NCBI GenBank assembly: GCA_003224085.1 | Contig: QHYK01000038.1 | Location: 124,001-188,000, forward strand | Direction of reading: 5' to 3' | DNA from: Acidobacteriota bacterium | GTDB lineage: Bacteria > Acidobacteriota > Terriglobia > Acidiferrales > UBA7541 | DNA length: 64,000 nucleotides | In this document: one piece after another, positions 38,749-43,925 of the stretch | Layout of the letters: each line of letters starts with the position of its first letter | Numbering within the stretch: the first letter of the stretch is position 1 | Made by a program: the position numbers and the translations under genes | The notes under the pieces: generated by a model | What the model was told of the DNA's origin: nothing | The model's input: the letters and a program-made list of their open reading frames with translations, nothing else | Databases searched by the model: none

Positions 38749-39327
38749 CTAATTTCCGGAAGACTTTCGGCGTTCGCAAAGCGTGACGATCTTCGTCGGG
38801 TCGATCGCCTCGCTGTCAATCTGCATCTCTACGACTTTGCCTTCCTTGTCGATCAAATAGTTGATGCGTCGCGCCGCTTTGTATTTCGGATTGTACAGGC
38901 CGTATTGCTTGGTGACTTCGCCGCCCCAGTCGCTTAGCAGCGGGAAAGTGACGCCAATTTTTTCCGCCCACGCATTATTGCTGAACATGCTGTCCATGCT
39001 CACACCCAATACTTGGGTGTCTGCAGCTTCCAGCTTGGCCAGGTTCTGCTGGAAGTTCTGCATTTGCTTCGTTCAACCACCGGTGAAAGCGAAAATGTAA
39101 AATGCCAGGGCGACGTTTTTCTTGCCGCGAAAATCGTGCAGCGACACCGGCTTGCCGTGGGTATCCATCAGGGTAAAGTCCGGGGCTAGGTCTCCCAACT
39201 TGACGGTGGGTTCGGGCACAGCGTCCTTCTTCTCCTGCCCCGCAAGCCGGTTTAGGGAGGCAAGTCCGCCCAGAACAATCGTGCCCAGTGCAAGGCCGAA
39301 AACCGGGACGATGAATCCTCTTCGCAT
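38749..39327 (-). CDS. Exported peroxiredoxin (AhpC/TSA/BCP-like), predicted selenoprotein with Sec at the TGA codon 39073-39075
   Basis: ORFs 39073-39327 and 38749-39063 are in the same frame, separated only by TGA: APDFTLMDTHGKPVSLHDFRGKKNVALAFYIFAFTGG[U]TKQMQNFQQNLAKLEAADTQVLGVSMDSMFSNNAWAEKIGVTFPLLSDWGGEV; TGA is at the peroxidatic Cys of the TPGCT-type motif. Confidence 0.85.
39022..39062 (-). promoter_or_regulatory. Candidate bacterial SECIS stem-loop directly 3' of the in-frame TGA
   Basis: RNA UGCAG-aa-CUUCCAGC-[AGAACCUGGCCAA]-GCUGGAAG-CUGCA: 13 bp with one 2-nt bulge, G in second loop position, loop starts 25 nt after the UGA. Confidence 0.75.
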
Positions 39328-41954: not shown

Positions 41955-42242
41955 TTAGCTGCACTGTGAGCCGCCGGCGATCGAAGGAACGAGCAGAACT
42001 CGATCGCCTTCGCGTAGCGCGCAGGACTCGCCGCCAAGGAAGCGGATGTCCTCTTCATTGAGATAGATGTTGAGGAACTGGCGGATTTGCCCGCTCTCGT
42101 CGCGTACGTGGCGCGAGAGCTCGGGAAACTTCTTGGTGAGTGCGTCTAGTGCCTCTGCGACGGTCGCGGCGCTACAATTCACTTTTGGCGCGCCGTCGGT
42201 GAAGCGCCGAAAAGCGGTTGGAATTTCAATCGTAACTGGCAT
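41955..42242 (-). CDS. MoaD/ThiS-like sulfur-carrier protein with C-terminal extension after the diglycine
   Basis: MPVTIEIPTAFRRFTDG..FLNIYLNEEDIRFLGGESCALREGDRVLLVPSIAGGSQCS-stop. Confidence 0.85.
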   Translation of the reverse strand: MPVTIEIPTAFRRFTDGAPKVNCSAATVAEALDALTKKFPELSRHVRDESGQIRQFLNIYLNEEDIRFLGGESCALREGDRVLLVPSIAGGSQCS

Positions 42243-42302
42243 TGCTGTTAAAGCCTCCTCACACAAAAACCAAATGAGAAAAACCAAATGAGTTCGTGGA
42301 AT

Positions 42303-43574
42303 CTAAGCCCTTGCCGCTCTAGTCGTCGCGCCGATCTGCGCGTCCAGATACGCCTCGAACGCTTCCAACCGCGGTGCAATGGCTTCCGTCGCTCGGAATT
42401 CGTCAGCAATTGCATCGGTCGTTTTCAAACCATTTCCCGTGATGCACACCACCGTGGTTTCGTCGGGCTTGATACGGTCTTGGGAAATAAGCTTCTTCGT
42501 GACTCCGGCCGTAACTCCTCCGGCCGTCTCCGTGAAGATGCCTTCGGTTTCCGCAAGAAGTTTGATGGCCTCCACAATCCCCGGGTCGGAAATGTCTTCG
42601 GCCCAGCCGCCGGATTCTCGAATCAGCTTCATGGCAAACGGGCCGTCGGCCGGATTGCCAATCGCCAGCGACCGCGCGATGGTGTTGGGTTTCTGCGGCT
42701 GGAATCTCGCGAGATTGCGCTTCACACCGTCGGAAATCGGCGAGCAGCCCGTCGCCTGCGCGCCGAAGAATTTCACGGGCTTGTCTTCCACCCAGCCGAG
42801 CGTGACCAGTTCCTTGAACGCCTTAGCGATTTTCGTAATCAGCGAACCGCCGGCCATGGGAACAACAACGTTGTCCGGCAGTTTCCAACCCAGCTGTTCC
42901 GCGATTTCGTAGCCGTGCGTCTTCGAACCTTCGGCATAGTAGGGCCGCAGATTCACATTCACGAGGCCCCACTGAAACCGGTCAGCAATTTGCGCGCAAA
43001 GCCGGTTGACGTGGTCGTAGTTTCCGTTGATGCGCACGATGCGCGCGCCGTAGACGGCAGTGTTCAGCACTTTGGCGGGCTCGAGGTCTGCCGGGATGAA
43101 CACGCAAGCATCGAAACCCTGCTGCGCAGCTTGCGCAGCAACGGCATTCGCGAGATTGCCGGTGGAAGAACAACCCACCGTTTCGAAACCGAAGCGTCGC
43201 GCCGCCGCCAGCGCGGTTCCCACCACGCGATCCTTGAAGGAAAGAGAAGGGAAGCACACGGCGTCATTTTTCAGATAGAGATTCTGCAGGCCCCATTGCG
43301 CCGCCAGCTTGCGCGAACGGACCAGCGGTGTGCCTCCCGTGGCCGTGGGTGCGGTGAAATCGTCGGTAAGGGGAAGCAGTTCGGAATAGCGCCACATGTT
43401 GAACGCACGGCCAGCAAGATTTTCTCGGCGGGCAAACTTTCTCAGCGAGTCGTAATCGTAGGCAACTTCGAGGGGAGAAAAACAGTCGTCGCAGAACGAG
43501 CGTGGAACGTTGCCCCAGGTTTTGCCGCATTCGCGACAGCGAAGTTGATACAACGAGTCATCAGACATGGCCAA
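42303..43574 (-). CDS. thrC: Threonine synthase family PLP enzyme
   Basis: N-terminal Zn ribbon CRECGKTW..CDDCFSPLE; SLSFKDRVVGTALAAARRFG; GCSSTGNLANAVAAQAA. Confidence 0.85.
   Translation of the reverse strand: MAMSDDSLYQLRCRECGKTWGNVPRSFCDDCFSPLEVAYDYDSLRKFARRENLAGRAFNMWRYSELLPLTDDFTAPTATGGTPLVRSRKLAAQWGLQNLYLKNDAVCFPSLSFKDRVVGTALAAARRFGFETVGCSSTGNLANAVAAQAAQQGFDACVFIPADLEPAKVLNTAVYGARIVRINGNYDHVNRLCAQIADRFQWGLVNVNLRPYYAEGSKTHGYEIAEQLGWKLPDNVVVPMAGGSLITKIAKAFKELVTLGWVEDKPVKFFGAQATGCSPISDGVKRNLARFQPQKPNTIARSLAIGNPADGPFAMKLIRESGGWAEDISDPGIVEAIKLLAETEGIFTETAGGVTAGVTKKLISQDRIKPDETTVVCITGNGLKTTDAIADEFRATEAIAPRLEAFEAYLDAQIGATTRAARA

Positions 43575-43804: not shown

Positions 43805-43925
<121 letters not shown>

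Follow-up and report, generated by a model that had tools for sequence, protein, structure and literature searches.

A threonine synthase-family enzyme and a capped sulfur carrier as a probable MetM-MetO system for methionine in Acidobacteriota

A protein-thiocarboxylate route to homocysteine in Wolinella succinogenes, HcyS-HcyF-HcyD with MetY, was reportedly described by Krishnamoorthy and Begley in 2011 (a work cited in PMC5764234), and it is said to use a fold type I acylhomoserine sulfhydrylase, not a threonine synthase homologue. In the chemistry of CysO, the product, CysO-Cys, ends in GG-Cys. According to the account given in PMC12172450, MetM of Streptomyces albulus is a homocysteine synthase that uses O-phosphohomoserine and is found with a SAM riboswitch (Hasebe et al. 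2024, AEM 90:e01247-24); the same account names metO as the sulfur-carrier gene of S. albulus and places MetM homologues in cyanobacteria. The Microcystis homologue, ThrC, has threonine synthase activity, and no rise in methionine was seen in vivo (PMC12172450). In a transcriptome study of an S. coelicolor mutant, SCO4293 and SCO4294, an annotated threonine synthase and its neighbour, are listed under sulfate assimilation (PMC2267785). Streptomyces also has capped sulfur carriers, PtmS2 (cap MV) and PtmS3 (cap C), and deletion of the JAMM protein PtmS1 abolishes thioplatensimycin (PMC6006322).

The locus described here is located in the 6.8 Mb genome of a soil acidobacterium, its nearest named relatives being MAGs of acidobacterial group 2. 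The window, the whole stretch of 64,000 nucleotides that was analysed, is part of contig C151, and contains the following features.

41955..42242, minus strand: MetO/CysO-like sulfur carrier, 95 aa; ATG at 42242, stop at 41955-41957; ends VPSIAGG-SQCS
41958..41969, minus strand: cap codons S-Q-C-S, four residues after the diglycine; compared with 86 related carriers
42303..43568, minus strand: MetM-like PLP enzyme, threonine synthase family; ATG at 43568, with an in-frame TTG start possible at 43574
43844..43914, minus strand: SAM-II/SAM_alpha-like riboswitch candidate upstream of the operon; below the Rfam gathering score, invariant in the clade

The preliminary description had reported a carrier ending GG-SQCS beside a PLP enzyme of the threonine synthase family. 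The two genes are indeed adjacent and co-directional, with the enzyme gene upstream and about 60 bp between them, and they match PF02597 and TIGR00260, respectively. Since a MetM/MetO pair with a SAM riboswitch has been published for S. albulus, in the account cited above, the pair is best called an acidobacterial MetM-MetO, and it very likely works like one. Our proposal, which we hold with high confidence, is that the operon is a methionine system in which MetM and the carrier thiocarboxylate would give homocysteine, with a cap trimmed by a JAMM protease and control by a SAM riboswitch. Elsewhere in the window (38749-39327, minus strand) there is a peroxiredoxin gene (AhpC/TSA, 125 bits in Pfam) whose reading frame contains a TGA codon at precisely the position of the peroxidatic cysteine, AFTGG-U-TKQMQNF; from its sequence, this is likely a selenocysteine peroxiredoxin, which ORF finders report as two pieces.

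The pairing of the two genes is widely kept, in line with the suggestion in the preliminary description that they work together. The carrier led to 80 related loci, and where enough sequence was available the enzyme gene is nearly always directly upstream, the exceptions being contig ends and a few loci (L053, L094, and L098). Over about 100 acidobacterial loci, only a few lack the pairing, and it is also seen in Nonomuraea; our counts of pairs, caps, and genomes among relatives are inflated by kinship. SCO4293-SCO4294 is presumably the same pair as MetM-MetO. The enzyme occurs without an adjacent carrier in clade members L199, L210, L215, L217, L218, and L223. In the window, as in MetM-MetO, a threonine synthase-family PLP enzyme is directly linked to a MoaD/CysO-like carrier. 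In some loci the pair has further partners: an aspartokinase gene follows the carrier in L235 and L236, the pair is joined to an E1 gene in L209, and in L208 the operon consists of an S-box, then E1 and cysteine desulfurase genes, then MetM and MetO. L214 and L237 (G059 C14) have one cluster with a MetM-like enzyme, its carrier, an SDR, CysM, JAMM, and a carrier fused to a MoeZ-type E1. The aspartokinase in L235 and L236 and the E1 and cysteine desulfurase in L208 point the same way, to a role in methionine formation.

The carrier (MPVTIEIPTAF...LLVPSIAGGSQCS) matches the Pfam ThiS model PF02597 with 47.2 bits (cut-off 22.5). The solved structures most closely related to it are M. tuberculosis CysO (3dwg, E 1.1e-16) and an Amycolatopsis carrier (4n6e), and both matched chains end in GG. 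It is closest to CysO and has the GG for an E1, but the GG is capped; the genome's own MoaD and ThiS terminate in SGG and GGG. The preliminary description had argued that such a carrier needs proteolytic maturation, and had seen no JAMM or E1 gene in the window. There are indeed none in the window, and a search of the rest of the genome located both on contig C103, together with a CysM-like enzyme and a second CysO-like carrier, which is also capped (IAGG-GCCSR). The E1 is a ThiF-rhodanese protein, and the JAMM protein (YECCG...YHSHPDHPARPSQYD) has an intact E / HSH-x7-S-x2-D metal-binding motif, so the genome contains both proteins expected with a JAMM-processed carrier. This agrees with the predicted need for trimming. 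JAMM is present in 49 of 50 related genomes, which leaves no contrast for a rule of the form "tail where JAMM, none where no JAMM", and we rejected it. The JAMM-linked carriers recognised in relatives are capped in 27/27 distinct loci; in five cases (L034, L037, L040, L043, and L046), a genome whose MetO-like carrier ends in GG nevertheless has a capped JAMM-linked one. L214 has its JAMM-linked carrier fused to the E1 via GG-SAVV, an arrangement that would require a cut after GG. The Aliarcobacter cibarius plasmid pACIB (L150) has a CysO-like carrier, a cysteine synthase, an M67 (JAMM) peptidase, and a family 2A encapsulin with cysteine desulfurase cargo, interrupted by IS elements.

Residues past the GG are found in 79 of the 87 close carriers, the window included; there are usually one to three, with two the commonest, and the remaining eight end at GG. 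The tail is therefore no sequencing accident, a possibility that the preliminary description had raised. On this comparison, capping is the rule for carriers of this clade. Linked carriers from Nonomuraea and from other lineages of Acidobacteriota mostly stop at GG, and an eight-residue tail was seen in L221. The preliminary description also proposed a check of relatives for the pair with an xGGSxCx tail. The pair is conserved, but this tail is not: the later letters of the cap vary among relatives, only GG plus a short cap is kept, and so xGGSxCx represents a single variant of a loose cap. Since CysO-Cys ends in GG-Cys, translation of a carrier ending in GGC would yield the very same molecule, and by this analogy the identity may explain the preference for Cys and other small residues in caps. 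The cap alone might be explained by neutral read-through, with stop codons drifting a few codons past GG, a protease that trims any tail, and no role for the cap. The variation of cap letters between close relatives and the eight uncapped carriers fit this explanation. However, the cap has at most three residues in 71/87 carriers, against 11% expected from random downstream frames, and its first residue is S, A, or C in 60/79 capped carriers, against 23% of in-frame codons past the stop. Both trends persist after clustering at 80% identity into 14 clusters, with a length of at most three in 8/14 (p = 4e-5) and S, A, or C first in 7/11 (p = 0.005). The consistent capping of the JAMM-linked carriers of these genomes also argues against drift, and we consider neutral read-through rather unlikely.

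The enzyme has an N-terminal Cys4 zinc-ribbon-like segment and matches TIGR00260 (thrC) with 280.7 bits against a cut-off of 167.1, and thus passes the family model for ThrC. Its signature is PSLSFKDRVV, NVNLRPYYAEGSKT, MAGGSLI, and ETAGGVT. Carrier-linked enzymes have in common P[ST]xSFKDRV, NVNLRP[YF]YxEGSK, an A[GS]GS-type loop, and ETAGG, and these differ from the solved threonine synthases. The residues GNAGN, NPxR before EGQKT, and EPAS, conserved in the solved enzymes, are not kept in the carrier-linked members, which have AGGSL, RPYY before EGSKT, and ETAG. The Arg that binds the phosphate of O-phosphohomoserine in Thermus threonine synthase is Tyr in the window enzyme. We dropped the reading that O-phosphohomoserine can therefore not be used, since MetM is reported, in the account of the S. 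albulus work, to act on this substrate. The NLRxYY loop alone was also rejected as the mark of the system, since a sister branch with SYKDR has a similar loop, mostly without carriers. No S-box was found upstream of the SYKDR-branch genes in the three carrier-less loci searched, and MetX is present in two genomes of this branch and MetA in two. In L231 and L234, the SYKDR-type relative is directly followed on the same strand by a canonical-looking threonine synthase (NSMNSLRLEGQKT). The carrier-linked enzymes form a clade well apart from canonical threonine synthases, and the genome has a distinct E. coli-type ThrC on contig C19; of 9 relatives tested, 8 also have an additional, distinct threonine synthase, which is of the E. 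coli or the Thermus type. Judged by this placement and by the coexisting ThrC, the window enzyme is not the usual threonine synthase of the cell.

The Rfam scan of the whole window at the gathering threshold gave no match. At a relaxed threshold, a candidate element appeared about 270 bases upstream of the enzyme gene, with 22.7 and 21.5 bits against SAM_alpha/SAM-II (gathering threshold 36). Its core is 99.9% identical over 27 loci of the window clade, while its flanks are 51% and 60% identical. The pairing fits P1 and a three-pair pseudoknot, with 94% of cells able to pair; no two-sided covariation is seen among the aligned copies, and the changes in P2 are one-sided only. Related elements in other lineages score up to 33.4 bits, still below 36, singly in L212 and as two copies in L213, L214, and L216. 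The tandem copies are about 120 bases apart and lie upstream of the MetM-like gene. An S-box (RF00162) above threshold lies upstream on the same strand in 53 loci, including Nonomuraea; it precedes the operon in 43 of 44 sister-clade loci searched, whereas the window clade has the SAM-II-like element instead. If the window leader senses SAM, it is a form missed by current RNA models.

Among 199 Acidobacteriota genomes, searched for all three proteins and treated as one sample, the MetM-like enzyme is present in 26, MetX or MetA in 66, and both in none (Fisher 1.1e-5, uncorrected for kinship). Within the class, the comparison stands at 0/15 against 5/6, and even within a single family (f33) two genomes (G101 and G113) have the pair and three others (G146, G173, and G215) have MetX. 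In the genome of the window, MetA was not found, and the search for MetX gave nothing convincing, only weak, secreted-looking paralogues. Two MetX-like α/β hydrolases with apparent signal peptides, in G000 on C69 (L161) and C87 (L162), are probably exported and other than homoserine acetyltransferases. Since 107 of the 199 genomes have, at the thresholds applied, none of the three proteins (MetM-like enzyme, MetX, and MetA), the absence of MetX alone proves little. Furthermore, the genome of the window encodes two PLP enzymes of Cys/Met metabolism (C30 and C58), which could take part in another homocysteine route. Nevertheless, with no MetA in this genome and neither MetX nor MetA in the 26 genomes with the enzyme, the MetM-MetO pair appears to stand in place of the textbook methionine route, by replacing homoserine acylation.

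The proposed mechanism is as follows. MetM would bind activated homoserine, most likely O-phosphohomoserine, eliminate phosphate through PLP, and add sulfur at C-γ to give homocysteine. MetO, made with a short cap, would be cut after GG by the C103 JAMM protease, and its C-terminus would be adenylated by the MoeZ-type E1, also from C103, leading to the thiocarboxylate that MetM would take as the nucleophile. SAM would turn expression down via the riboswitch, SAM-II-like in the window clade and S-box in the sisters. Formation of homocysteine by this pair had been suggested in the preliminary description, with O-phosphohomoserine as the substrate of the enzyme, and the SAM riboswitches, the exclusion with MetX/MetA, and the published MetM-MetO, as far as it is described in PMC12172450, all agree with it. 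The pair belongs with MetM-MetO by its gene linkage, by the SAM control seen in relatives, and by taking the place of MetX, and the homocysteine reaction is predicted from this membership. It is also possible, and we suggest it tentatively, that the sulfur of homocysteine comes from cysteine via the desulfurase, the E1, and the matured carrier into MetM, which would be transsulfuration without cystathionine, in an operon under two unrelated SAM riboswitches (S-box and shortened SAM-II, sometimes tandem) in sister lineages. The L208 operon is the strongest hint for this.

Could the enzyme be a conventional threonine synthase, or one that doubles as a deaminase, which the carrier regulates or modifies in the manner of a SAMP-type small modifier? 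The TIGR00260 score, the Microcystis homologue, which makes threonine from O-phosphohomoserine in vitro (PMC12172450), and the best NCBIfam name of the carrier, SAMP1, below its cut-off, are in line with this, but the separate ThrC, the upstream SAM riboswitches, the exclusion with MetX/MetA, and the E1 and cysteine desulfurase in the L208 operon make it improbable. Nor do the relatives fit a standard threonine synthase lacking a linked carrier, which the preliminary description had named as evidence against its own reading. Since a homologue of MetM, the ThrC of Microcystis, acts as a threonine synthase, the window enzyme may by analogy serve both threonine and homocysteine synthesis. A second cysteine synthase of CysO-CysM type, converting carrier thiocarboxylate and O-phosphoserine to cysteine, is highly improbable: the carrier is closest to CysO and L214 has both pairs in one cluster, but a full CysM-JAMM-CysO-MoeZ cluster is already present on C103, and SAM control and linkage to aspartokinase (L235 and L236) indicate the aspartate family, not serine.

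The MetM-MetO assignment would account for methionine formation in a large group of soil bacteria that lack both MetX and MetA, corrects the annotation as threonine synthase, and predicts that a single, shared JAMM protein matures the capped carrier. It also ties a pathway described in 2024 to a natural genetic experiment, in which single families have either the pair or acylation.

The MetM-MetO type is already published; what the present analysis adds to it are the caps, the SAM-II-like element, and the exclusion with MetX. Like MetM-MetO of S. albulus, as far as the account in PMC12172450 describes it, the present system has a threonine synthase-like enzyme and an adjacent carrier gene, with a SAM riboswitch upstream in relatives and a SAM-II-like candidate in the window. 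Unlike that system, it has an Acidobacteriota host, a capped carrier in the class of the window, a SAM-II-like element instead of an S-box, and a documented exclusion with MetX/MetA. With M. tuberculosis CysO-CysM-Mec+ it shares the carrier family (3dwg), a fold type II PLP enzyme, and a JAMM partner, but its PLP enzyme belongs to the threonine synthase branch rather than CysM, the JAMM gene is outside the operon, and the genome has a separate CysM set. As in QbsE/QbsD and PtmS2/PtmS3-PtmS1, there are residues after GG, and a single JAMM and a single MoeZ-type E1, encoded at another site of the genome, would serve the carriers (PMC6006322); the cap sequence varies, and trimming is here a prediction.
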